Below, in pieces: positions 11,726 to 25,120 of a stretch of 64,000 bases of DNA. Each line of letters starts with the position of its first letter. Position 1 is the first letter of the stretch. Below the pieces are notes generated by a model, which was not told the DNA's origin, did no database searches, and saw nothing but the letters and a program-made list of their open reading frames with translations. The translations under genes were made by a program, and so were the position numbers. The DNA comes from Terriglobia bacterium (GTDB lineage Bacteria > Acidobacteriota > Terriglobia > Terriglobales > Acidobacteriaceae). The stretch covers positions 28,409 through 92,408 of the forward strand of contig JAIQFA010000011.1 in the NCBI GenBank assembly GCA_020073525.1. Direction: 5' to 3'.

Positions 11726-13187
11726 CCAACCGCTCTCCAAAAGGCCACTCCCCCCGCCGCCAAGCCCGCGCGCAATAAACCGCAATTCCCACGACGAGAA
11801 TCACCGCCGCATATCGGATCTCCCGCAAAAACCCCTTGCGCGAAACCAGAATAAAAACAAAACTCCCCGCCGCCACCAGCGCCGGCACCGGATAGAGCCA
11901 CATCCGAAACGGACGCGGCATCTCCGGACGCCGTATCCGCAACACAATCACGCCGATGCTCTGCACGAGAAACTGCAGAATGATCCGGATCACCACCAGC
12001 GCCGCAATCAAATCCGCCAGCCGCAGAAAACAAAACAGCGCCGCCACGCCCGCCAGCGCCAGCAAAGAAACATAAGGAAACTGATGTACGGGGTGCACCC
12101 GCGCAAACGCCCGAAAATAATTTCCATCAACAGCAGCCGCATACGGCACCCGCGAATAGCCCAGCATCAGCGAGAACACCGAAGCGAACGCCGTCCACAT
12201 CACCAGCGCCGATACGATCGAGCCTGCCCTATGCCCGTACGCTCTCTGCATAAACGTGGAAACCACGTACAGCTTGCTGTTCGACGCCCCCGACTGCGCC
12301 AGTTCCCGCCACGGCACCACGCCGAGAATGCTGACGTTCATTACTACATATAGACACGCCACCGCCAGAATGGATAGCAACAACGCCCGCGGAATGTTTT
12401 TCCCCGGATTCTTAACTTCGTCCCCGAGGAAACACACGTTGTAATACCCCCAGTAGTCATAGGCGGCGATTAACATCACTCCGCCCAGCCCGCGAAAGAA
12501 GTCACGGGAAAGAGAAAACGCACCCGGAGGGAAATCAAATGCCTGCCGCGCGTTGAAATGAGTCAGACCGGCAAAGATGATCCACCCGATCGTCCCCATC
12601 ACCCCCACCCAAAGCAGGGTCGAAAGCCGCGAGATCGCCGTGATCCGCCGATAAAGAAGAAAAGCCGTGAACAGGCAGACTCCGATGGCCAGCAGAGTCG
12701 CGGGCATTGCCACCCATGTCACCTGCAGTGGACCCAGCAGCGGCACATTCAGGCTCAACGTGCGCGCCGCCCAAACTCGCTCCAGTCCCGGCCAGAAGAA
12801 AGCCGCATACTGGGAGAGCCCCACCGCTCCCGATGCAATCGAAAGTGGAGCGCTGAATGAAAGTTGCCAGATAAAGAGGAAGGAAACCGCTCGCCCCAAT
12901 TTCTGTGGCCCGTAAATTTCTTTCAAATATCGATAGGATCCGCCCGACCCCGGCATAGCAGCACCCAGCTCCGCCCACACCAGGCCATCGCAGACCGCCA
13001 GCGCCGCGCCCAGCACCCACCCCAGCATCGCCTGCGGACCGCCCATCGCGGTAACGATCAGCGGGATCGTAATAAACGGTCCCACGCCGATCATGTCGAT
13101 CATGTTCAGCGCAGTAGCGGAGCCAAGGCCAATCCCGCGGACAAGTTGCGGCGCGGTGCCGGATTCGCCTTCGCGGGAAATTGTCAT
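11709..13187 (-). CDS. APC-family amino-acid permease
   Basis: A 492-residue protein with about 12 membrane segments. It has the helix-1 signature GSATALNMIDMIGVGPFITIP and the later RVPYAAAVDGNYFRAFARVHP segment, both typical of amino acid-polyamine-organocation transporters. It would import an amino acid or related cation by symport or exchange; the substrate cannot be predicted. The last residues (VVARR) and the TAG stop fall inside a family F dispersed repeat, so the natural C-terminus was probably rewritten by the repeat. No good ribosome site precedes the ATG. Confidence 0.87.
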   Translation of the reverse strand: MTISREGESGTAPQLVRGIGLGSATALNMIDMIGVGPFITIPLIVTAMGGPQAMLGWVLGAALAVCDGLVWAELGAAMPGSGGSYRYLKEIYGPQKLGRAVSFLFIWQLSFSAPLSIASGAVGLSQYAAFFWPGLERVWAARTLSLNVPLLGPLQVTWVAMPATLLAIGVCLFTAFLLYRRITAISRLSTLLWVGVMGTIGWIIFAGLTHFNARQAFDFPPGAFSLSRDFFRGLGGVMLIAAYDYWGYYNVCFLGDEVKNPGKNIPRALLLSILAVACLYVVMNVSILGVVPWRELAQSGASNSKLYVVSTFMQRAYGHRAGSIVSALVMWTAFASVFSLMLGYSRVPYAAAVDGNYFRAFARVHPVHQFPYVSLLALAGVAALFCFLRLADLIAALVVIRIILQFLVQSIGVIVLRIRRPEMPRPFRMWLYPVPALVAAGSFVFILVSRKGFLREIRYAAVILVVGIAVYCARAWRRGEWPFGERLVVARR

Positions 13188-13198
13188 GAAATAAGCCG

Positions 13199-13384
13199 CT
13201 GGTCGGTAGTCGTTAGTCGTTGGCGATCGTCATCAGCATCATTTGTTTGTAACTTGTCAACCTAAATTAAATTTGTCATCCTGATCGAAGCGAAGAACCT
13301 GCTTCTTGCCAGCGCAAACACTACCGCGTGCGTGCGGTCCTGAAACTCCCCGAACGACTAACGACCAGCGACTAGCGACCGCTG
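13199..13384. repeat. Intergenic repeats (families C and F)
   Basis: Family F motifs flank the gap in opposite directions (13199-13225 and 13349-13384). Between them is a GTCATCCTGATCGAAGCGAA element (13275-13304), related to copies at 34521-34602 and 56957-56984. The right-hand F copy supplies the stop codon of the deacetylase gene. Confidence 0.7.
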
Positions 13385-16173
13385 ACCAAATTCACAAACA
13401 ACCGCAGCGCCCCCGGAACGCCCGCCGGCAGTTGCCGGAAGAAGGCATATCCCGTGTAGATATACGTTCCCTTCCCATAGTGCGCCACCAGCAGTCCGCC
13501 CTTCTGCTCGCCTTCGCCCGGATCATGCGATTCGAGCAACGGGGTAAAGTTCGAGTCCCACTGCGACATGAAGTACAGCCCGCGCTCCTGCACCCATCCC
13601 GCGAAATCCTTCTGAGTAATTTCGTTCGGAGAATGGAAGATCGCGTTTGCTGGATCGAGAATCACAACCGGCGCATCTTCCACCGAAACCCGCGCCCGGC
13701 TCAGAGTAGCCGGAAACGGCGTGAACTTCCCGGAATTGAAGTCTCCCGCTGCGGCGTTGTATCCCACGGTGTTGTACTGCACCACCAGGCGCCCGCCTGC
13801 CTGCACAAAATCGAGCAGCCTCTTGTTATTGGCGATCACATCTTTTTGCGTGTCGTAAGCCCGAATCCCCAGCACGATCGTCCGATACCGGCTCAAATCT
13901 TCTGCACCAAGCTTCTCAGCCGGAATCAAAGTCACGTCCATACCGATCTGCTGCAGCACGGCAGGAATCTCATCCCCCGCGCCCATAATGTACCCGACCT
14001 TCAGATCCTTCGGGACCTTTACATCCACGACGCTGACCCGCTGCACCGCCGGCTGGTAGTAATAAAACGTTCCCAGATCTTCGCGCGTGACGACCGAATA
14101 GCCTTCTTCGTAATTACGATGTCCGCTCTTCAGCGAGGCCCGAATTTCCCGTCGTCCTTCCGTCCGATTCCCTGGATGCACGGTGAAATCCGCACTCTGC
14201 CTCTCGCCGCGCTCATGAAACTCCAGTTGCTTTTCCGCTGGTTCGGCGCGCCAAGTCTCGGGCACCTCGACTCGCAGCGCTCCTTCATCCTTCTCTGGAT
14301 CTCCCGCCCAGTGTGTCGCCTGCAGTGTCTTCGAATCCAGATTGCCGGACACATCGATCTTGACATTCGACTGGGGGCCGTCCTCTGTTGGGATCACCTG
14401 CTCACCCGGGTCCAGCATGACGGAAAAAGCTGGCGCCACCGCCAAGGGACGCTCAGCAATCGCGCCGGAAGCGTCTTTGTATCTCACCATGCACACGGCG
14501 GTAGTCGCACCCGCTCCGGCCTTGCCGATCATGCCCAGCGCCTTCACCGGAGGCGGCGGAAAGGGAAGCCCTTGATACTGCAGGTCGTCAACTGTGTTGA
14601 GCGCTTCGGTTTCAGGATCGTTCCGGTGCCAGTATGGCCTCGTGGGCTGGGCTGTCGGAGGAACAAAAACCAGGAATCGCGTGGTGACGGCGTTCTTCCC
14701 CTCTGTCATTCTCCCCAGAACCTTGGAATTCCATCCTTGCGGGAGCAACAAATCGATGCCGGCGCTTGTGGTTGAGGGGTCTCCTGCAGAGAGCGTGGCG
14801 GTGACTGGAAACGTCCGCCCCCGCACCGCCATGAAGGCGTCTTCCGGACTCGTTCCCACCGGCGCGTCGACCACAACGTGCAGAGTCACGCCCCTCGCGA
14901 GTCCAAGCGCCTTCGCGATCTCGCTCGCCTTCGCCTGCAGTGAAGGCAGGATGCTATTTTTTCCCTGAGTCGAGAGCTCCGATTCCTCGATCTGCTTGCT
15001 AACCTTCTGAATCAGGAAACTGCTGACGGCTAGAGGATCCGCCGCCGCTACCGGATCGCTCTCCGCGGCAACCGTAGCCCCATCGATCTTTGTCTTAATC
15101 TCAACTAACTCACCCCGCAGCCACGGTACCTTCTTTTCTTCCTCCCCGAGTCGCGATGCCAGCCCGGGCAGCGTCGTATCGATCCCGTCAAAGAAATCCA
15201 ACTCGTGCCCATCCTTATCTTTATCTTTCGTAGACTGCACCACGGAATCCACGAGTTTGTAATGGGTGAAGCGGTCGCCCGGCTCGACCGTCCAGTTCGC
15301 CGCTCCTTGTGAAAGTTGGTGGCGCAGTCCCTTCATCGCAAACTGAATGTAGGACGTGCCCAGCACCGCGTCATTCGCCCCAGTGTTCAGCCGCACCGTA
15401 TAGTTCGCCGCGTCACAAGTGTTCGAGAAGAACCCGCACACATTCCCGATGTACAACTTCTTCGGCTGCCAAGGCTCCAGTCCTTCTTTCAGTTGCTCAG
15501 GAAATCGCTTCGGATCGCCCGCCGCCCGAAATGCCTCTTTCGTCAATATCGCCGACGCCTGGTGATGCCCGTGCCCGTCGCGATCCGTACCCGAAAATCG
15601 TGCAATCAGCACATCCGGACGAAAGGTCCGAATCACCCGCACCATATCGGCGAGCGCGATATCGTGCCCTTGCCACTTCTGAAATGTTTCTTCGGGAGTT
15701 TTCGAATATCCAAAATCGGCCACGCGCGAAAACCGCTGCTCGACACCGTAATACCGATCCGAGGCCAGCAATTCCAAAGTCCGCAGCACGCCCAGCGCGT
15801 CGAACAGATTGCTGCCCAGTTTGTTCTGTCCGCCCTCGCCGCGCGTCAGCGTCATCAGCAACGTCGAGACGCCTTTCCCGCGCGACTCCAGCGTCAACAT
15901 GCCGCCATCCTCATCATCCGGATGCGCCGTGACCTGCATCAGCCGTCCGGTTGTCTGCAGCTTTCGCAGCACGAGCTTCAACCCCGCCGCACCAGTTTCC
16001 TGAGGGAGCGGTTCATAATAATGATCGACGACATGATCGACCTTGGCCGCCTCGACATGTTGTGCCCCGGCAGAGATCGCGGTTGACGCCAACAAGATCA
16101 GCACCATTGCTGCCGCGAACCGGTCGCGCACAAATCCAGACCCGTACTGCCTCAACATTTCAAACATCTCCAT
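13372..16173 (-). CDS. Large secreted PIG-L/LmbE-type deacetylase
   Basis: About 933 residues. A signal peptide or anchor lies at residues 20-38. A PIG-L/LmbE deacetylase domain follows, with the zinc motif TAHPDDEDGGM at 82-92 and a GHGHHQAS segment near 165. The C-terminal two-thirds is long and beta-rich and ends in a Rossmann-like segment (YRTIVLGIRAYDT, GGRLVVQYNT) resembling ThuA/glutamine-amidotransferase-like folds. PIG-L enzymes remove acetyl groups from N-acetylglucosamine conjugates, so an exported glycan deacetylase is likely. ATG 16173 was chosen over an upstream TTG; the site is only moderately supported. The stop lies in a family F repeat. Confidence 0.85.
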   Translation of the reverse strand: MEMFEMLRQYGSGFVRDRFAAAMVLILLASTAISAGAQHVEAAKVDHVVDHYYEPLPQETGAAGLKLVLRKLQTTGRLMQVTAHPDDEDGGMLTLESRGKGVSTLLMTLTRGEGGQNKLGSNLFDALGVLRTLELLASDRYYGVEQRFSRVADFGYSKTPEETFQKWQGHDIALADMVRVIRTFRPDVLIARFSGTDRDGHGHHQASAILTKEAFRAAGDPKRFPEQLKEGLEPWQPKKLYIGNVCGFFSNTCDAANYTVRLNTGANDAVLGTSYIQFAMKGLRHQLSQGAANWTVEPGDRFTHYKLVDSVVQSTKDKDKDGHELDFFDGIDTTLPGLASRLGEEEKKVPWLRGELVEIKTKIDGATVAAESDPVAAADPLAVSSFLIQKVSKQIEESELSTQGKNSILPSLQAKASEIAKALGLARGVTLHVVVDAPVGTSPEDAFMAVRGRTFPVTATLSAGDPSTTSAGIDLLLPQGWNSKVLGRMTEGKNAVTTRFLVFVPPTAQPTRPYWHRNDPETEALNTVDDLQYQGLPFPPPPVKALGMIGKAGAGATTAVCMVRYKDASGAIAERPLAVAPAFSVMLDPGEQVIPTEDGPQSNVKIDVSGNLDSKTLQATHWAGDPEKDEGALRVEVPETWRAEPAEKQLEFHERGERQSADFTVHPGNRTEGRREIRASLKSGHRNYEEGYSVVTREDLGTFYYYQPAVQRVSVVDVKVPKDLKVGYIMGAGDEIPAVLQQIGMDVTLIPAEKLGAEDLSRYRTIVLGIRAYDTQKDVIANNKRLLDFVQAGGRLVVQYNTVGYNAAAGDFNSGKFTPFPATLSRARVSVEDAPVVILDPANAIFHSPNEITQKDFAGWVQERGLYFMSQWDSNFTPLLESHDPGEGEQKGGLLVAHYGKGTYIYTGYAFFRQLPAGVPGALRLFVNLVSGR

Positions 16174-16218
16174 CTGATGGATTTTCCCCAAAGAAAGGAG
16201 CAAATATATTCCTTGTGA

Positions 16219-16390: not shown

Positions 16391-17575
16391 CTAACGAACC
16401 AGCGCCGCCGACGATCCGACCCATTTCAGATTCTTGTTCTGATCCACACCCATCATCAGCCCGCGGCCCATGCGCACGATCGTCAGCACCGGGACTAACT
16501 CATCGAGCCACACATACATAATCCGCAGTTCGACTTTGGTCGCGCCGTGCGGCGTTTCCACGATCGGAGTGAAACTCAGCCGCTCCTGCAAAATAAATTC
16601 GCCGCGTTGTGCCGCGGGAATCGCGTCAATGTCGGCGCGCGAAGGCGCAATCACCACGCCCAACCCGGCAAACGAATACAACGGCTTGAGCACAAAATTC
16701 TCCAGATCCGACGGCACTTCCGGCAGTTGATCCAAAAACCACGTCCGTGGTACCGACGGATGCTTCAAGTAAGGAATCGAATATTTGCTGATCCGGAAAT
16801 ACCAGTTCGGATGTCCCGCCCACTCCACATCCAGTTCATCGCGAAAATCAAACGGCAAAGCCACGCCCTTGCGTTCCAGTTCATCCACGATAGTGCGGTT
16901 ATAAATCCGCTCAATCGGAACTCGCTTGCCCGCCTCTTCGTAAAAGAGCCGCTGCCCATCTTTGTGGATATTGGTGATGCAAACGGTGCGAATGCCAAGC
17001 AACTTCTCCGTCAGCAGAAAATCCGGACGCGTCTTCTGCTCCTCGGGATGCACCTCCATCAGCACTACATGAACCGGATCATGCCCCGCAACAATCGCGT
17101 CCTGCAAAAGCCGTTTGTAGGAAGGCGACTCGAGCCCGCTCAAGAAGTAGCGAAGGGAAGGATCGAGCCCGAATGCATCGATGTAAGCCTGCGCCAGCAC
17201 CGCCTGATAAGCATAAAGAGAAGGGAAGGCCTGCAACTCGACCAACTTCGGTTGTAACTCGCCCACCGCATCCCGCACCAACCCAAAGTCCACCTGAATA
17301 AACATCGGATGCGCCGCTTCATTCGGAACCCGAAACTCCGCCGGAATCGAGGCCTCCGAGCGCGCCCGATATTCGGGATTGTCCACCAGTTGCCGGATCA
17401 GCGCCTTCCCATCCTCCCCCATGCGCTTAACCAGCGCATCCGGAAAGAAGCAAGGCGTCTCGCAAAGCGCGAACGGCACGTCCATCCCGCAGCGCGAAGT
17501 CATCTCGCGGCGCAATAGCTCATATTTTTCAGAAGTGAATCGCGAGTTGAAGTCTTGCCGGTAGGAAGGCATCAT
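16391..17575 (-). CDS. ATP-grasp-like ligase candidate (second of the cluster)
   Basis: A 394-residue soluble protein without a signal peptide. The C-terminal half carries ATP-grasp-like features: ENFVLKPLYSFAGLGVV (lysine and glycine-rich loop), GEFILQERL, and KVELRIMYVW, which may supply acidic metal ligands. The N-terminal half (FRVPNEAAHPMFIQVDFGLV, PKLVELQAFPSL) resembles glutathionylspermidine-synthase/circularly permuted ATP-grasp proteins. It probably joins a carboxylate to an amine with ATP, but substrates are unknown. Two ATGs at 17570-17575 allow either start. It is the last gene of the same-strand cluster that includes the GCS2 ligase, peptidase, first ATP-grasp and esterase. Confidence 0.65.
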   Translation of the reverse strand: MMPSYRQDFNSRFTSEKYELLRREMTSRCGMDVPFALCETPCFFPDALVKRMGEDGKALIRQLVDNPEYRARSEASIPAEFRVPNEAAHPMFIQVDFGLVRDAVGELQPKLVELQAFPSLYAYQAVLAQAYIDAFGLDPSLRYFLSGLESPSYKRLLQDAIVAGHDPVHVVLMEVHPEEQKTRPDFLLTEKLLGIRTVCITNIHKDGQRLFYEEAGKRVPIERIYNRTIVDELERKGVALPFDFRDELDVEWAGHPNWYFRISKYSIPYLKHPSVPRTWFLDQLPEVPSDLENFVLKPLYSFAGLGVVIAPSRADIDAIPAAQRGEFILQERLSFTPIVETPHGATKVELRIMYVWLDELVPVLTIVRMGRGLMMGVDQNKNLKWVGSSAALVR

Positions 17576-17599
17576 AGAAGTCGTGGATGTTGATGGGAG

Positions 17600-17670
17600 T
17601 GTGGGGACGGGCGCCTCGCCCGTCCACGCAGAGCGAAGCTCGGCTACTCCTCGGCGCTCTCCGCGTCGAG
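17600..17670. repeat. Family B hairpin with adjoining repeat
   Basis: A GACGGGCG/CGCCCGTC palindrome followed by a CGCTCTCCGCGTC motif similar to the repeat at 37306-37326. It lies between the ATP-grasp-like and M29 peptidase genes. Confidence 0.55.
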
Positions 17671-17683
17671 GCGGTGAAAAGCC

Positions 17684-18736
17684 CTAAGCCTCAATCAAAA
17701 ACTGCCCGCCCCGCATAATCTGCTCGCCGTCCACCCAGATATCGAAATTCCGCCCCACCACGTCAATGTGCGTCGACGAATACCACTCCGCTCCCGTGTG
17801 CGCCCCATAGGGATTCCCGAATGCAATGTGGATCCCAGGGTATTTCTCGTCCTGCAGAATCTCGCCGATCACGTCTTTCAATTCAATGTTCGTGCCAATG
17901 GCGAACTCGCCCACCCGGTTACTGTTCTCATCGGTATGTGTGTAGGCCCAGAAATCGTCTTTCAATTCCTTGTTCGCCGAGTGCGCCTCGATCAGACGAT
18001 TCTCCTTCACCTGGATGGTCAGCGGGTTCGCCTTCAAATCGCCAAACTTCGCGCACAAATAATCGCCCACTACGCCGTCAATCACGAAGGTCCCGTTTAC
18101 CTCACCGGGACTAGTGAATACTTCGCCGCCCGGAAGGTTCCCCCACTTTTCCGTGCTGATAATTCCGCTCGTCTTCACCCACCTGTAATTCGGATTCAAA
18201 TCCACCACCAGGTCCGTACCCGCGGCTGTCTTGGCGCGAATTTGTTTCGCCTTGGTGACTATCTCCAGTACTTTCAGGCTCAGCCGGTCCACCTTCAAGA
18301 AGTCGGCACGCATGCCTTCGAGCATGATGCGCTTGTTGATGTTGACCATGTGGGCGTGCCGGATCCTTCTTCGGTTCACTACATCCGTCATCTGCATGCG
18401 CGACTTCAGTTCATTAGTCTGCGCCTGCACCGCGAAAATGCTGACCTGGCTGGTCTCCAGATCCTCCGTGATCGCCAGCGGCAAATCCGTCAGCGGACGC
18501 GTCGCCACGTCCTCCAGCACCCACGTCTGGTACCGGCAGCCGACTTCTTCTAGTTCGCGCACGATGGCGGCGGCGATCTCCAGGCTCACTTCGTCGGTAA
18601 TGACCGTGACTTTTTCCGAAGGCTGCACCCGCAGGCACACGCGTACCGCATTCCGCGCCCCCTGCGAGAGTTGCGGATCGAAAGTCATCTGATTCAGTTG
18701 TCGATTGGATGGTTCTGCAGTTTTCATCAAACTCAT
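17684..18736 (-). CDS. M29-family aminopeptidase
   Basis: A 350-residue protein of the aminopeptidase T/leucyl aminopeptidase (M29) family. N-terminal segment ARNAVRVCLRVQPSEKVTVITD and C-terminal segments FAIGTNIELKD, IHIAFGNPYG and STHIDVVGRN supply the family's metal-binding acidic and histidine residues. It would remove N-terminal amino acids from peptides in the cytoplasm. It begins inside the end of the GCS2 gene (TGATG overlap), so the two are probably translationally coupled. That makes action on a GCS2 product, or recycling of its substrate, plausible. Confidence 0.85.
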   Translation of the reverse strand: MSLMKTAEPSNRQLNQMTFDPQLSQGARNAVRVCLRVQPSEKVTVITDEVSLEIAAAIVRELEEVGCRYQTWVLEDVATRPLTDLPLAITEDLETSQVSIFAVQAQTNELKSRMQMTDVVNRRRIRHAHMVNINKRIMLEGMRADFLKVDRLSLKVLEIVTKAKQIRAKTAAGTDLVVDLNPNYRWVKTSGIISTEKWGNLPGGEVFTSPGEVNGTFVIDGVVGDYLCAKFGDLKANPLTIQVKENRLIEAHSANKELKDDFWAYTHTDENSNRVGEFAIGTNIELKDVIGEILQDEKYPGIHIAFGNPYGAHTGAEWYSSTHIDVVGRNFDIWVDGEQIMRGGQFLIEA

Positions 18737-19875
18737 CAGACGGCTCGGGCGGTGGGCGCGCTATCTGCCTCATCCACGCCCACCTCAGTCTCCTCAATGA
18801 TGTAATCCATTACCGCTTTCATGTCGCCGGTTTCGTGGAACACCTGCAACTGCCGGTCTGCACCCGTGCCCATCTTCATGATTTCGCGGATGTACTCTAC
18901 TTCTTCTCGGCAATTCAGTTCGTCCAGCACGTCATCCACAAATTCCAGATACTCTTCGATCAGATCGCGTTCCGGAACCTCCATCTGCTTGCCGAAGTCG
19001 ATCAGTTTCCCATTAATTCCATAGCGCGCCGCTCGCCACTTGTTTTCCATCAGCAGCGACTTCCGGTACAGCCGGAATCCCTGGTTCTGCGAGTACAACT
19101 TGTAGAGCTTTGCCACCGTCGCCTGGATCAGCGCCGCCAAGGCAATGGTTTCGTCCACCCGCATCGGCAGATCACACACCCGGAATTCCAGCGTGTCGAA
19201 GAATGGATGCGGCCGGATGTCCCACCAGATCTTCTTCGCGTTATCGATCGAATTCGTCTTCACCAGCAGCTTGACGTAATTTTCGTACTCGCCCCAACTC
19301 GGAAAATAATCCGGCAGGTTCGTGCGTGGAAACTTGTCGAACACCTTGCAGCGGTACGATTTCAGTCCCGTATCCATTCCCAGCCAGAATGGGGAATTTG
19401 TCGAAAGCGCCAGCAGGTGCGGCACAAAATACCGCGCATGATTCATCAGGTGGATCAGCGTCTCCCGATCCTCGATTCCGACGTGAACGTGCAGACCGAA
19501 AATCAGGTTCGCTCGCGCCACCAGCTGCATATCCTGAACAATATTCTTGTAGCGCTCGCCCGGTGTAACTTCCTGCATACGCCAATCCGCGAATGGGTGC
19601 GTGGCCGCCGCCGCCAGTCGCAGCCCGTTCTCCCGCGACAATCGGATCATGTGCCGCCGCAAACTCTTCAGTTCTTCCCGCGCTTCCTTAATATTGGCGC
19701 AAACCGACGTGCCCACTTCCACCACCGATTGGTGCATCTCGGTCTTGACCCGTTCCTGCAGGACCAATTTGCCTTTCTCGATAATCTCGGCGTGGATGTG
19801 CGACCGAAGATCCCGGCTCTCCGGATCGACTGTCTGATATTCCTCTTCGATTCCCAGCGTGAATGTAGGTTTCAT
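18736..19875 (-). CDS. Carboxylate-amine ligase, GCS2/YbdK family
   Basis: A 379-residue glutamate-cysteine-ligase type 2 protein. Early acidic ATP/metal motif LGIEEEYQTVDP (residues 7-18), then HQSVVEVGTSVC, FGLHVHVGIED and FDTLEFRVCDLPM are all characteristic. Members link an amino acid carboxylate (often glutamate gamma) to an amine; YbdK itself has only weak activity and its true substrate is unknown. The start ATG 19875 is where homology begins, and the longer frame adds no recognisable sequence. It overlaps the peptidase gene by three bases and is flanked by ATP-grasp genes. Confidence 0.88.
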   Translation of the reverse strand: MKPTFTLGIEEEYQTVDPESRDLRSHIHAEIIEKGKLVLQERVKTEMHQSVVEVGTSVCANIKEAREELKSLRRHMIRLSRENGLRLAAAATHPFADWRMQEVTPGERYKNIVQDMQLVARANLIFGLHVHVGIEDRETLIHLMNHARYFVPHLLALSTNSPFWLGMDTGLKSYRCKVFDKFPRTNLPDYFPSWGEYENYVKLLVKTNSIDNAKKIWWDIRPHPFFDTLEFRVCDLPMRVDETIALAALIQATVAKLYKLYSQNQGFRLYRKSLLMENKWRAARYGINGKLIDFGKQMEVPERDLIEEYLEFVDDVLDELNCREEVEYIREIMKMGTGADRQLQVFHETGDMKAVMDYIIEETEVGVDEADSAPTARAV

Positions 19876-19950
19876 CGCGGCATCCCAAGCTGCCAGGCAG
19901 GGAGGGCTTCTGGCAGAAAGTCCACTTAGTATACCCAATGACCAGCTTGC

Positions 19951-20052
19951 GTAGGGACAGCCGCCCTGGCCTCTCCATCCTGGCTTACCGAATATCTGGG
20001 TTAGCTTCGGTGTTCCTCCGTGTCCCTCTGTGTACCCAGTGGTTCAAGGTTT
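19951..20052. repeat. Dispersed repeats between ligase genes
   Basis: A GTAGGGACAGCCGCC motif (19951-19965), repeated at 21118-21132, is followed by a family D CTCCGTGTCCCTCTGTG patch. Both lie in the gap between the GCS2 and first ATP-grasp genes. Confidence 0.6.
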
Positions 20053-20077
20053 TTGTGGGCGTCTGATCAGAACTCAC

Positions 20078-21067
20078 TTAGGTTGAAGCTTTCTTTCGCG
20101 TCTTGGGTGTCCGAATCTCCACCCACTTCGGCCCATTCAAAAACGCCGCCCAGCGCAACTCCGACACCGGATTCTCTCCGCCGAGCGCCTTCTTCACGGC
20201 CATCTCCGCCACCGCATCCACCACCCACTCAAAATTCTCCTGCCCCACCGACGTGACCTCTGCATCCGGTGCCGGATTCATGAAGTCAATCGCGTATGGA
20301 ACGCCACCTTCCACTGCAAACTCCACCGTATTCAGGTCGTAGCCGAGCGCGCGGCACAAAGCCAGCGCATCTTTCTCGATGCGTTGCTTCAACGCAGTCC
20401 CCGGCTGCGGGTTTCCCTTCACATAGCGCTCCTGGTGCGGAGCCCTGGGATCGTACTTCATGATATGCACTTTCTCCTGGCCTACAACGTAGCAGCGGTA
20501 ATAGTCCTCAAACTCCACCCCGTGCTGCAGCGTCATGCAGAGATCGCCCGTCTGGTTGTAGTTATGGAAGAATTCCTCCGGAGAATGCACCTTGTACACG
20601 TGCTTCCAGCCGCCGCCCGCGTAAGGTTTCAAAAACGCCGGAAACCCGACATAGGAAAATACTTCTTCCCAATTCAGCGGATACATCAAGTTGCGCATCG
20701 ACTTATCGGTAGTATCCGGCGGATGCTCGTGATGTGGCAAAATCACCGTAGGCGGAATCGCCACCCCCATCTTGTGTGCCAGCGCATAATTAAAAAACTT
20801 GTCATCCGCTGTCCACCAGAACGGATTGTTGATCACAATCGTCCCCTGCAGCATCGCGTTCTTCAAATACGCCCGGTAGAAGGGAATGTCCTGCGAAATC
20901 CGGTCGATGATTACGTCGTACTTCTTCGGCTCATCCATGCGGATGCCGCCAATCTTTACAAATTCAGCCGTTATCCCCTCAACCTTCATCCCGTTGATCT
21001 TCTCGACCAAAGCCGGCGGAAACGTATTCTCCATCCCAAAAATAATTCCGATTTTCTTGTTTGCCAT
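20078..21067 (-). CDS. ATP-grasp ligase (D-Ala-D-Ala ligase/RimK-like)
   Basis: A 329-residue ATP-grasp enzyme. The ATP-binding lysine is Lys147 in FPAFLKPYAGGGWKHVY with the mobile glycine loop 150-153. The Mg-binding set is Glu249 (TVEFAVEGG), Asp261 and Asn264 in AIDFMNPAPD. The N-terminal domain (KIGIIFGMENTFPPALVEKI) is a pre-ATP-grasp fold. It would form an amide or peptide bond via an acyl-phosphate; substrates are unknown. A GAGGG ribosome site lies about 10 bases before ATG 21067. It lies downstream of the esterase gene and upstream of the GCS2 gene on the same strand, which suggests shared function. Confidence 0.85.
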   Translation of the reverse strand: MANKKIGIIFGMENTFPPALVEKINGMKVEGITAEFVKIGGIRMDEPKKYDVIIDRISQDIPFYRAYLKNAMLQGTIVINNPFWWTADDKFFNYALAHKMGVAIPPTVILPHHEHPPDTTDKSMRNLMYPLNWEEVFSYVGFPAFLKPYAGGGWKHVYKVHSPEEFFHNYNQTGDLCMTLQHGVEFEDYYRCYVVGQEKVHIMKYDPRAPHQERYVKGNPQPGTALKQRIEKDALALCRALGYDLNTVEFAVEGGVPYAIDFMNPAPDAEVTSVGQENFEWVVDAVAEMAVKKALGGENPVSELRWAAFLNGPKWVEIRTPKTRKKAST

Positions 21068-21117
21068 AAAATCAATATCCCTCTTTCAGCAATAATCTAA
21101 ATCTCTCCGAGAATCAC

Positions 21118-21196
21118 GTAGGGACAGCCGCCTCGGCTGTCCGCCGGGCGGAGCCCGGCTAGATCTAGCGACGAACGACCAGTGACCAACGACCGC
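21118..21196. repeat. Dispersed palindromic repeats
   Basis: GGACAGCCG/CGGCTGTCC palindrome at 21122-21141, then GCCGGGCGGAGCCCGGC, then a family F run of CGACGAACGACCAG-like units ending beside the esterase stop codon. Confidence 0.65.
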
Positions 21197-21198
21197 CT

Positions 21199-21909
21199 CT
21201 AAAAATACTTCCCTGCCATCCGCTGCCACAACGGCCAATCATGCTTGCTGTTGTCCCCGTAAATATCCAGCCAATGCGGAATCCCCTTACCGTCCAGAAT
21301 CGCAGCCATCTTCACATTCGCGTCCAGGCACATATCCCAGTCCGACGATCCCAGCACGATCTTCATTTGCCGGTATCGGCTCAGAAACCACTCATCGCCG
21401 GTCCGCGGTAAATAATCCGGAGGATTGTTGAAGTAGACATTGTCGTCATAATAGCCGTCGAGGAAGCTCTTGATGTCGAACGATCCGCTCATGGTCACGC
21501 AAGCCGAGACCAGATCGGGATGGCGCACGGCAAGATTCAGCGCGTGGTAGCCGCCAAAGCTGCAGCCCGTCACCGCGATCTGCGGGGCCCAGTTCTTCCA
21601 CTTTAAATGGGGCAGAAATTCGTTGATCACGTAGCGCTCGTACTGAACATGTCGCCAGATCCGCGCTCCTGGATGCACGCTCTTGTTGTACCAACTCTCG
21701 CCATCGACGCTGTCCACGCAGAATACCTGGATCTCCCCCGCGTCCAGCTTCCCGGCCAGCGTGCGGATCATCCCTGCATCTTCGTACTCAAAAAAACGTC
21801 CCTGCGAGGACGGGAAAACGAGGATCGGCTGCCCGCCGTGCCCAAACACGAGCGACTCCATGTCGCGTCCCAATTCGTGGCTGTATTGTTTGTGATATTC
21901 GCGGTTCAT
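21199..21909 (-). CDS. Alpha/beta-hydrolase esterase
   Basis: A 236-residue soluble protein of the putative esterase (esterase D/mycolyltransferase-like) family. The nucleophile is Ser117 in VTGCSFGGYHAL, aspartates such as those in LGSSDWDMCLD could serve as the acid, and a C-terminal histidine lies in SKHDWPLWQ. There is no signal peptide. It would hydrolyse an ester or amide or transfer an acyl group; the substrate is unknown. It is the first gene of the ligase cluster. Upstream there is no Shine-Dalgarno, but ATTGTA (TACAAT on the minus strand, 21920-21925) could make a leaderless start. Confidence 0.82.
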   Translation of the reverse strand: MNREYHKQYSHELGRDMESLVFGHGGQPILVFPSSQGRFFEYEDAGMIRTLAGKLDAGEIQVFCVDSVDGESWYNKSVHPGARIWRHVQYERYVINEFLPHLKWKNWAPQIAVTGCSFGGYHALNLAVRHPDLVSACVTMSGSFDIKSFLDGYYDDNVYFNNPPDYLPRTGDEWFLSRYRQMKIVLGSSDWDMCLDANVKMAAILDGKGIPHWLDIYGDNSKHDWPLWQRMAGKYF

Positions 21910-22072: not shown

Positions 22073-25000
22073 CTACTGCGTCTCGGATCGTGGATTGATT
22101 CCCAAGTGCTTCAGCTTCGATTGCAGCGTGGTCCGCTTCAATCCCAACCGCATGGCTGCCCCGCGTAGCCCGCCAATCTGCCCGCGGCTCTCGCGCAAAG
22201 CCCGCAGAATGTGCTCGCGTTCGGCCGCTTCTAGACTTTCATCCGCGGCTTCCTCCTCCATGGTTGTGCTGATCGCCCGCAGTTCGCTTAACGGCGACAC
22301 CAGCACCGAACCTTGTGTCAGAATCACGGAACGCTCGATGAAGTTTTCCAGCTCCCGCACATTCCCCGGCCACTCCCACCCCTTGAGTTCGTCGATGGTC
22401 CTCTTCGGGATGCTGGTGATCGTCTTTTTCATTCGCTTGGCAAACTTCTGCACAAAATGTTCGACCAGCAACTGGATGTCTTCCCGCCGTTCCCGTAACG
22501 GGGGCACGCGGATCGGAAACACGTTCAGACGGTAATATAAGTCGCTCCGGAACTCGTTCTCGCGTACGCTATCCGCCAAGTCGCGGTTGGTGGCTGCTAT
22601 CAAACGAAAGTCCATCTTCAAAGTATGAGTTCCGCCCAGCCGTTCGAACTCATGATCCTGCAAGACTCGTAGCAGTTTCGGTTGCAGGGCCAAAGAAATC
22701 TCCCCGATCTCGTCCAGAAACAGCGTGCCCTTGTCCGCCAGTTCGAGTCGTCCAATTTTCTTGTTGACCGCTCCGGTGAAAGCGCCCTTCTCATTGCCGA
22801 ACAACTCGCTCTCCAGCAGTCCCGACGGAATCGCCGCGCAATTCATTTTGATGAAGCTGCTGTTCGCGCGATGACTCAAGCGATGGATCGCCCGCGCCAC
22901 CAGCTCCTTGCCTGTCCCCGTCTCGCCCAGCAATAGCGCCGTAGCATCGCTGGCGGCCACTTTTCCCACGTTTTCCATGACGGTTTGCAAGGCCTTGCTT
23001 TGCCCGATGATTTCCCCGAACCCCAGGGTGGTGTCGATTTCCTGTTCGAGATAGAGCTTTTCCTCCGTGAGCCTTCTCTTGGCTTCGCGTAAAGCTTCGC
23101 TTGCCTCCCGGAGATCGGTGACATCCATACTGGCGCCGGTGAGTCCAATGACTGCGCCCGTTGCGTCCAAAACCGGTTCAATCGTTGTATCAAGGTAGTA
23201 CTTCTTGCCGCGGTCTGTGATCTGTAGCTCATGACGCGCTCCCACCCCGGTTTCCAGCACCCGCCTCCGGACTTCCGTGGTGCGCTCAACCTCCTCAGGG
23301 TCGAAGATGTCGTTCGTCGTTTTTCCCAGCAGTTCGCTCACCGGCCTGGAAAGCTGCGGATTGTATATCGAGGTGTAGCGCAAGTCCCGGTCTTGGCTGA
23401 ACATGGCAATCGGAGAATTCTTCAGCGCCACCCGGAACCGTTCCTCGCTTTGCCGAAGTGCCTCCTCCGCCCGCTTGCGAGCAGTGATGTCGATGGCCGC
23501 TGCGACAACCCCCCTCACCTTCCCATCTTCGCCCAGCAGCGGCACAACATTGGTCAGCTCCCGCCGTTCCGTTCCGTCTTCGAATACCATCGTCATGGGT
23601 ATGTCGTACTCCGAACGTCCTGTTGCGGCAGCTCGTTGCATCGGCAACTCTTCCACCGGAAGCTCGATTCCGTCCCGCAGAAACCGCACTCGGGGCTTCT
23701 CGCCCGCGAGGGCGCTCAACGATGCGTTGGCACCAGGTTCCAGGCGCAGATGCTCGCGTCCCATCCGATTTGTTGTCACGTGTCGGCACTCCGCGTCATG
23801 GGCAATCATCACCGGAATCGGGAGCACATCCAGTACCGTTTCCAGTTCCTTCGCTCTTGCCCGCTCGCGGGCTTCACTTTCCCGCAACGCCTCCTCTGCC
23901 AGCTTCTGCTCTGTGATGTCGCGCAAAACACACGCCACGCGATCGATTCCTGTCGGACCCTCCACCGGTAGGTATGTGATCGATACCTCCCTCTCCCCCA
24001 TCCCCGGATAATTGTTCTTTAGTTCGTATCTGACGACCTTCCCTCGGAAACACTCATCCAGTCTTTCCTTGATTACCGTTTCAAACACTTTCGGATTCAT
24101 TACCTCCGCGACCACGTGCCCGACGACCTGTTCTTCCGTCATGCCCCAGTAGCGCAAGAACGCCCGATTCACGATCACATACCGGTAGTCCCGGTTCACC
24201 ACCAGGATCATATCCTCCAGGTTCTCCACGACTCGCTCGTACTGTCGCAGTCTCACTTCCGCCCGCTTTCGCGCCGTGATATCGCGCGAAACAGCTATGC
24301 AATACTTCCGGTCCAGTTGCACCTGGCGCAGATTTACCTCGACCGGGAATGTTGTTCCATCTTTCCGCTGGTGCACTCTCTCGAAGGTTGCACATCCCGA
24401 CTTCCGCAGTTGATCATCCACTTGCGCGCACGAGGTCGCGTCAACGCTTGGATCGATATCCAAGGAAGTCATCGACAACAATTCTTCCCGGCTGTAGCCA
24501 AGCTCCAGGCACGCCTTCTCGTTCACATCAAGGAATCGTCGAGTCTCAGGATCGATGACTTCGATCGCATCGTTCGAGTGCTCCAGTAGGGTCCGGAATA
24601 GCGTCAGGCCCTGGAGCATTCGTTCCTGTTCCCGCGAGGTCTTCAGCAGCTCTTCGTTGCTGGCGCGCAACGCTTTCTCGGCCCGCACGCGGTCCGTGAC
24701 GTCGTGCGCAATTCCCCGTACGAGCGGTGCCTCCACTCCCTCGGTGCGAAGCGTGTTGTGGTACTCCCAGATCCGCTGCTCTCCCGATCGCGTCATCACG
24801 GCGATCAGCCCGCGAGACTCTCCTGTGTGCTGGATCTCATCCAGATAGGCATCGAATTGTTCGCGGAATTGCGGATCGAGGAAATCGCGCATCGGTGTGC
24901 GCATCATTTCTTCTACGCTGTAACCAAGGACACGCACGGCTCCGCGATTGACCGACAGGAGTCGACCCTCAAGGTCGTGGATACACAGGAGGTCGTGGCT

Positions 25001-25120
25001 GTGCTCGGCTAGATCGCGATACCAGTCTTCGTTTTGCTCCCAGACCCGTCGGATTGGGTTCCACGCAACTGGCGAATCCGCCGGAGTGGCGAACTTCGGT
25101 ACTTCAGGGTGCGATGCCAT
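22073..25120 (-). CDS. Sigma-54 activator with five PAS domains
   Basis: A 1015-residue protein. Five PAS/PAC units occupy about residues 25-145, 165-285, 290-410, 425-545 and 560-675. A sigma-54 AAA+ domain follows, with Walker A GETGTGKE near 728, an intact GAFTGA loop near 779, and FLDEIGEI. A Fis-type helix-turn-helix ends the protein (SRGQIGGLRGAAMRLGLKRTTLQSKLK). There is no receiver or kinase domain, so it probably senses signals directly, FhlA/NifL-like in layout. Start ATG 25120 has a GGGTGAG site. Its targets are unknown; the esterase-ligase cluster starts 163 bases downstream on the same strand. Confidence 0.93.
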   Translation of the reverse strand: MASHPEVPKFATPADSPVAWNPIRRVWEQNEDWYRDLAEHSHDLLCIHDLEGRLLSVNRGAVRVLGYSVEEMMRTPMRDFLDPQFREQFDAYLDEIQHTGESRGLIAVMTRSGEQRIWEYHNTLRTEGVEAPLVRGIAHDVTDRVRAEKALRASNEELLKTSREQERMLQGLTLFRTLLEHSNDAIEVIDPETRRFLDVNEKACLELGYSREELLSMTSLDIDPSVDATSCAQVDDQLRKSGCATFERVHQRKDGTTFPVEVNLRQVQLDRKYCIAVSRDITARKRAEVRLRQYERVVENLEDMILVVNRDYRYVIVNRAFLRYWGMTEEQVVGHVVAEVMNPKVFETVIKERLDECFRGKVVRYELKNNYPGMGEREVSITYLPVEGPTGIDRVACVLRDITEQKLAEEALRESEARERARAKELETVLDVLPIPVMIAHDAECRHVTTNRMGREHLRLEPGANASLSALAGEKPRVRFLRDGIELPVEELPMQRAAATGRSEYDIPMTMVFEDGTERRELTNVVPLLGEDGKVRGVVAAAIDITARKRAEEALRQSEERFRVALKNSPIAMFSQDRDLRYTSIYNPQLSRPVSELLGKTTNDIFDPEEVERTTEVRRRVLETGVGARHELQITDRGKKYYLDTTIEPVLDATGAVIGLTGASMDVTDLREASEALREAKRRLTEEKLYLEQEIDTTLGFGEIIGQSKALQTVMENVGKVAASDATALLLGETGTGKELVARAIHRLSHRANSSFIKMNCAAIPSGLLESELFGNEKGAFTGAVNKKIGRLELADKGTLFLDEIGEISLALQPKLLRVLQDHEFERLGGTHTLKMDFRLIAATNRDLADSVRENEFRSDLYYRLNVFPIRVPPLRERREDIQLLVEHFVQKFAKRMKKTITSIPKRTIDELKGWEWPGNVRELENFIERSVILTQGSVLVSPLSELRAISTTMEEEAADESLEAAEREHILRALRESRGQIGGLRGAAMRLGLKRTTLQSKLKHLGINPRSETQ

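Follow-up and report, generated by a model that had tools for sequence, protein, structure and literature searches.

A recurring five-gene cluster of Acidobacteriota with three types of ligase and a candidate role in gamma-glutamyl peptide or peptide-amine synthesis

What would a bacterium make with three types of ligase encoded beside a peptidase relative and an esterase? The question is raised by a window of 64,000 nucleotides, the whole stretch of DNA analysed here, from Terriglobia bacterium (assembly GCA_020073525.1, contig JAIQFA010000011.1, positions 28,409-92,408, forward strand). Five open reading frames (ORFs) in the order est-grasp1-gcs2-m29-grasp2 lie on its minus strand throughout, at window positions 16391-21909. 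The ligases are a RimK-like ATP-grasp enzyme, a GCS2 enzyme and a glutathione-synthetase-like ATP-grasp enzyme. With moderate confidence, we consider that these five recurring genes probably form one pathway. Its predicted product is a short gamma-glutamyl peptide, or a conjugate of a peptide and an amine, assembled in successive ligations driven by ATP.

The encoded proteins

A preliminary description of this DNA had listed five same-strand genes in 5.5 kilobases (kb), with the ligase and peptidase genes overlapping. All five ORFs were found as described, and the overlap is a TGATG stop/start of 1 base between gcs2 and m29, read from the sequence (18734..18738, minus strand). This overlap is also present in four of the 10 close relatives compared. 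The intergenic gaps from est to grasp2 are 131, 199, -1 and 108 bases; within the cluster of the 10 close relatives gap lengths range from -7 to 1055 bases.

The gene gcs2 (18736..19878, minus strand) encodes a YbdK-type carboxylate-amine ligase of the GCS2 family. Its product matches PF04107 (GCS2) in Pfam at E 1.2e-66 and is a member of NF010039 (YbdK carboxylate-amine ligase, PRK13515), scoring 561.5 bits against a curated cut-off of 371. Among solved structures it matches 1tt4 (E 5e-53) and YbdK 1r8g (E 7e-52). In its GIEEE stretch, G9, E11, E12 and E13 do not vary across 65 sequences. The longest ORF begins at TTG 19938, and homologues favour the ATG pair 19878/19875 over this longer span (18736-19938).

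The two ATP-grasp proteins belong to no Pfam or NCBIfam family above cut-off. The product of grasp1 (20078..21067, minus strand; 329 amino acids) has no Pfam match at E ≤ 0.1 and falls outside the RimK family by score (rimK_fam TIGR00768, E 3.8e-6, 26.5 bits, curated cut-off 143.4). Structure modelling gives it an ATP-grasp fold that is RimK/LysX/ArgX-like, and the corresponding structure alignments have 13-17% identity. K147, E249, D261 and N264, which we take to be ATP- and Mg-binding residues, are invariant in 37 sequences.

The product of grasp2 (16391..17575, minus strand; 394 amino acids) is predicted to be a circularly permuted ATP-grasp protein. Its only Pfam match is ATPgrasp_ST (PF14397, E 0.0023), below cut-off, and the Pfam family of YgiC and glutathionylspermidine synthetase gives no match at E ≤ 0.1. 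Sequence search alone yielded no convincing solved relative, and the fold was settled by a structure model. The modelled protein has the glutathione synthetase/GspS/YgiC fold over its whole length, that is, the fold of eukaryotic-type glutathione synthetase. The ATP-grasp assignment of this second protein, which the preliminary description had put at risk of failing once modelled, was borne out. The putative glutathionylspermidine synthase 3n6x ranks second in the model's Foldseek list, and alignments with YgiC, YjfC and glutathionylspermidine synthetase have 10-16% identity. Q115 may stand where this fold usually has an asparagine. An apparent fusion in a long grasp2 ORF at one locus (L106) was rejected because the reading frame runs through X residues, most likely a scaffold gap.

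The other two genes encode hydrolase-type proteins. The est product (21199..21909, minus strand; 236 amino acids) is an alpha/beta-hydrolase of the PF00756 Esterase family (E 1.8e-8, 34.9 bits, cut-off 22, Pfam). Its GxSxG serine S117 is kept in 55 of 57 aligned sequences and H223 in 56 of 57. The m29 product (17684..18736, minus strand; 350 amino acids) is a relative of the M29 aminopeptidase family (PF02073, E 4e-19, 69.1 bits, cut-off 27, Pfam). E205, E277, H303, Y310, H323 and D325 are invariant in all 27 sequences, and the first four align with AmpS 1zjc; the six are presumably the E, E, H, Y, H and D ligands of the M29 two-metal site. The catalytic and binding roles assigned to conserved residues of grasp1, m29, est and gcs2 are our assumption.

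Linkage and co-occurrence of the genes

Relatives in the protein database at E ≤ 0.001 number at least 7998 for grasp1 and at least 8000 for grasp2. Gene order was compared in two sets of grasp1 loci. The genome-contig loci are the 80 most similar to grasp1, a selection that favours near relatives; they span Acidobacteriota and some Ignavibacteria and Bacteroidota. The phylum loci were evenly drawn. Sufficient flank, meaning no less than 1.5 kb before grasp1 and 6 kb after it, was available for 48 of the 80 genome-contig loci and for 23 of the 28 phylum loci, window included. A neighbour was counted if it lay on the same strand, scored above 50 bits and fell between 2.5 kb upstream and 6.5 kb downstream of grasp1.

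The exact five-gene order and strand are present in 18 of the 48 genome-contig loci, where gcs2 was counted in 32, m29 in 30, est in 25 and grasp2 in 22. Bryocella elongata, a cultivable, non-pathogenic species, has the five genes in this order (L105). An Ignavibacteriales locus (L137) carries est-grasp1-gcs2-grasp2. Only two of the 23 phylum loci, the window and L031, show the exact order; judged by length and gene positions, the genome-contig locus L100 looks like the contig of L031. Neighbours in this set are gcs2 and PF14403-type ATP-grasp genes (7 loci each), est (6), grasp2 (4) and m29 (3). Because exact order and strand recur in both sets, the linkage exceeds chance. The conserved order sought by the preliminary description holds for 18 of the 48 near-relative loci, and across the wider phylum only a minority of loci show it.

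Matches in 80 phylum genomes were found for grasp1 in 30 (21 at E ≤ 1e-76), est in 32, gcs2 in 25, m29 in 21 and grasp2 in 8. All eight grasp2-bearing genomes fall among the 21 with strong grasp1 matches and have gcs2.

Co-occurrence is strict in the class sample of 151 genomes, which was searched with grasp1 (E ≤ 1e-20), gcs2 (above 450 bits), m29 (E ≤ 1e-40) and grasp2, taking the best match per genome. These counts are trimmed: GCS2 matches below 450 bits were dropped (52 to 42 genomes), as were the grasp2 fragments of G111 and G153 (32 to 30 genomes). The genes grasp1, gcs2, m29 and grasp2 are present in 46, 42, 40 and 30 genomes, and grasp1 occurs in seven families. The other three are never found without grasp1, and all 30 grasp2 genomes have gcs2. 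All four are absent at these thresholds from 105 genomes, 10 of which carry a weaker GCS2 match. As a negative control, bshC shows no association, being present in all 46 grasp1 genomes and in 102 of the 105 others (148 of 151 in all); the genomes in which it was missed (G110, G211 and G221) are not among the 46.

Pairs of genes no more than 10 kb apart are the rule for grasp1-gcs2 (39 of 42), gcs2-m29 (37 of 40) and m29-grasp2 (20 of 29), and make up 17 of 30 for grasp1-grasp2. Some divided sets stay together in part: G212 has est-grasp1 and gcs2-m29-grasp2 as separate groups, and in G178 and G173 gcs2-m29-grasp2 are together with grasp1 elsewhere. The preliminary description would have been undone by genes lying apart in most related genomes. 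They do not mostly lie apart in the class sample, and a shared pathway is therefore well supported.

The slot of the third ligase can be filled by another gene. Twelve class genomes have grasp1 and gcs2 without grasp2, and 10 of them carry an intact PF14403-type permuted ATP-grasp gene beside grasp1 (family assigned by Pfam in two of the ten). The order in these ten is gcs2-grasp1-cpgrasp-m29, with est nearby on the opposite strand in nine. In G215 the PF14403-type gene is in two pieces beside grasp1, and in the twelfth genome, G167, the cluster is broken by contig ends. A profile of nine phylum-sample members of the PF14403-type family matches 3n6x by sequence (E 1.4e-9).

The peptidase slot also varies. 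An unnamed conserved family, c21, occupies the place of m29 beside gcs2 in L149 (5888-6916), L040 (9416-10417) and L041 (16968-18023); in L045 it follows the PF14403-type ATP-grasp gene (11904-13058).

Four further loci (L054-L057) have a distant grasp1 relative (about 30% identity) near a PF00756-type esterase. The one such esterase scanned has a CBM48-like stretch below cut-off, and a neighbouring protein has a sub-cut-off peptidase S51 match in the two scanned.

A candidate pathway and its alternatives

How could these proteins work together? GCS2 would activate a side-chain carboxylate by phosphorylation, the likeliest being the gamma-carboxylate of glutamate, and join it to an amine or amino acid. 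The grasp1 ligase, by its RimK/LysX/ArgX fold, could attach another residue by way of an acyl phosphate. At the C-terminal carboxylate, grasp2 could place a cap, either an amino acid or an amine such as a polyamine. The M29 relative may act in N-terminal trimming or in recycling of the product, and the esterase may take off an ester or acyl group. We infer these activities, substrates, step order and product from families, predicted folds, conserved residues, gene order and co-occurrence.

Several observations weigh against this pathway. No other same-strand member lies near grasp1 in 11 of the 48 genome-contig loci and 9 of the 23 phylum loci, and four of the 46 class genomes with grasp1 keep it without gcs2, m29 or grasp2 (G049, G145, G164 and G196). 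The two ATP-grasp genes are apart in 13 of 30 genomes, on the same contig at more than 10 kb in seven and on different contigs in six; one genome scored as apart, G189, has a 35-residue grasp2 piece on the contig that carries its grasp1. Matches to m29 above 250 bits occur in only 4 of the 80 phylum genomes. The Fisher values for co-occurrence (2.5e-20 to 1.4e-34) take no account of shared ancestry, and we do not read them as probabilities. The m29 product also weakly matches the dioxygenase 7cn3 (E 9.5e-4), which has phenylalanine at the position of E205. Across lineages we recognised no recurring gene for a transporter, carrier protein or tailoring enzyme from which the product could be named, DinB-type genes being found in some lineages only. 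The small-peptide pathway suggested in the preliminary description is partly supported: most class genomes that have both members of a pair keep them within 10 kb, but grasp1 and grasp2 are often separate, and the five-gene order is rare in the phylum loci.

The varying peptidase slot bears on another logic, in which GCS2 adds a temporary gamma-glutamyl group to an amine, the ATP-grasp enzymes modify the compound and a peptidase-type protein removes the glutamyl group, leaving a product without it. Such logic is used in ergothioneine synthesis (EgtA/EgtC) and by PuuA/PuuD. That different proteins, M29 or c21, hold this slot is consistent with it, and c21 carries CHSFG- and NHHPE-like patterns which may resemble the triad of glutamine amidotransferases and gamma-glutamyl hydrolases. 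Profile searches with c21 gave no match and no link to amidotransferases, so the amidotransferase-like reading stays a motif reading. A further point against this logic is that M29 enzymes are alpha-aminopeptidases, not gamma-glutamyl hydrolases. We regard a protecting group as rather unlikely.

Could the product instead be a thiol? GCS2 would then form gamma-glutamylcysteine, and an ATP-grasp enzyme would finish a glutathione-like low-molecular-weight thiol used beside bacillithiol. The eukaryotic-type glutathione synthetase fold modelled for grasp2 would suit this role, and the window's genome has one GCS2 match and no match to PF02955 (GshB), a family matched in 9 of 14 control genomes. DinB-superfamily genes near the cluster in several lineages point the same way; this superfamily includes bacillithiol and mycothiol transferases. 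A model of the DinB superfamily, made with genes of these same loci (six of them run against Pfam), matches 19 of 129 grasp1 loci, 18 on the grasp1 strand and 8 of them within 2 kb upstream. Against a thiol, the model has no match in the 25 kb of the window that surround the cluster, and the window's genome has BshC (E 1.6e-79). Since bshC is present in all 46 grasp1 class genomes, another compound probably already serves as the usual thiol, and the cluster was rejected as a bacillithiol replacement. Hiras et al. 2018 likewise predict bacillithiol in Acidobacteria and assign glutathione genes to other groups (PMC6282198). The DinB associations keep a thiol-related use possible without making it the leading reading, and we hold a glutathione-like thiol to be improbable.

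The DinB genes are on the same strand and about 6.3 kb or less from grasp1 in L113, L115, L116, L117, L119, L123, L130, L132, L139-L144, L146, L036 and L040. In L117 the ORF of the DinB gene and that listed for grasp1 share four bases.

A more speculative form of the gamma-glutamyl peptide-amine pathway, which we put forward very tentatively, is that a second, as yet undescribed small-molecule cofactor is made beside bacillithiol in Acidobacteriota and in a few Ignavibacteria and Bacteroidota. It would be a gamma-glutamyl peptide-amine, the product of three ligases whose folds are unrelated or rearranged, and DinB-type transferases would use it in some lineages.

The modelled fold of grasp1 also admits peptide tagging: a protein would receive amino acids or a short peptide from the ligases and lose them again through the M29 protein. 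Enzymes with RimK- and LysX-like folds act on proteins or carrier proteins. In the cluster gaps we recognised no conserved small gene for a carrier or target, and the predicted fold of grasp2 is nearest to small-peptide ligases, so that tagging seems doubtful.

Genes that are split in some genomes, and grasp1 standing alone in some loci, would be expected of neighbours that co-travel by chance or under common regulation only. Their strict co-occurrence in the class sample even where split, and the replacement of the third ligase within the same cluster, make this very unlikely. A graspetide-type cluster for ribosomally synthesized and post-translationally modified peptides, suggested by ATP-grasp enzymes near a peptidase-family protein, is the least credible, as no conserved precursor ORF was recognised in the cluster gaps and 163 bases upstream, the gaps vary in length among close relatives, and to our knowledge neither GCS2 nor a glutathione-synthetase-like ligase is a graspetide enzyme.

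Surroundings of the cluster and known systems

A sigma-54 activator of 1015 amino acids with several PAS domains (22073-25120, minus strand) is encoded immediately upstream of est on the same strand and is a possible regulator. The window has two copies of the 15-mer GTAGGGACAGCCGCC (19951-19965 and 21118-21132), both inside cluster gaps; its chance mean is 0.11 at up to 2 mismatches, and two copies were reached in 2 of 100 shuffles. A promoter scan was at chance level (3 found, 3.1 expected), and the 19 terminator-like sites (6.0 expected) are not taken as evidence.

Downstream of grasp2 is a PIG-L deacetylase of 943 amino acids with a NEW3-like domain (13372-16203, minus strand), and PIG-L relatives are similarly placed in six close-relative loci (L058, L060, L062, L063, L067 and L070). 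Eight close-relative loci (L058, L060, L062, L063, L065, L067, L068 and L070) encode, a few kb downstream from grasp1, a kinase-like protein of 692-807 amino acids with a serine/threonine-kinase-like start. PIG-L (seven compared loci, window included) and the kinase-like protein (eight loci) were kept outside the set.

Soils are rich in Acidobacteriota, a phylum that is still poorly understood. The ligase set has a grasp1 that recurs in seven families, its members occur in the same genomes even when split, and its third ligase is swapped within a fold class; it suggests a metabolite that would merit isolation, and the cluster supplies directly testable enzymes. Among titles and abstract openings of the literature, no description of the five-gene set was found.

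How does the cluster compare with known systems? By score, gcs2 belongs to the YbdK/PRK13515 carboxylate-amine ligases, a branch for which we know of no pathway. RimK, LysX and ArgX ligases differ in that grasp1 is below the rimK_fam cut-off and no small carrier-like ORF was recognised in the cluster gaps. The amidoligase networks predicted by Iyer et al. in 2009 reportedly combine an ATP-grasp enzyme, a GS-like ligase and a peptidase in one neighbourhood as a tagging system. YgiC/YjfC and glutathionylspermidine synthetase are peptide-polyamine ligases whose likeness to grasp2 is one of fold and not of sequence family. In GspS the ligase is fused to an amidase, whereas grasp2 accompanies GCS2, a RimK-like ligase, the M29 relative and the esterase. 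In the fungal E-64 pathway, which is independent of nonribosomal peptide synthetases (NRPS), Cp1B, a ligase of the fold class of grasp2, makes a pseudodipeptide (PMC12568646). Unlike the cluster, that pathway has an epoxysuccinate warhead and an adenylating amide synthetase, and the portions of PMC12568646 available to us name no GCS2, M29 or esterase set. The parallels with E-64/Cp1B and with YgiC/GspS are analogies of fold and logic, not family membership by sequence. By these analogies the cluster could add a ribosome- and NRPS-independent route to peptides or peptide-amine conjugates, beside those to E-64 and glutathionylspermidine.

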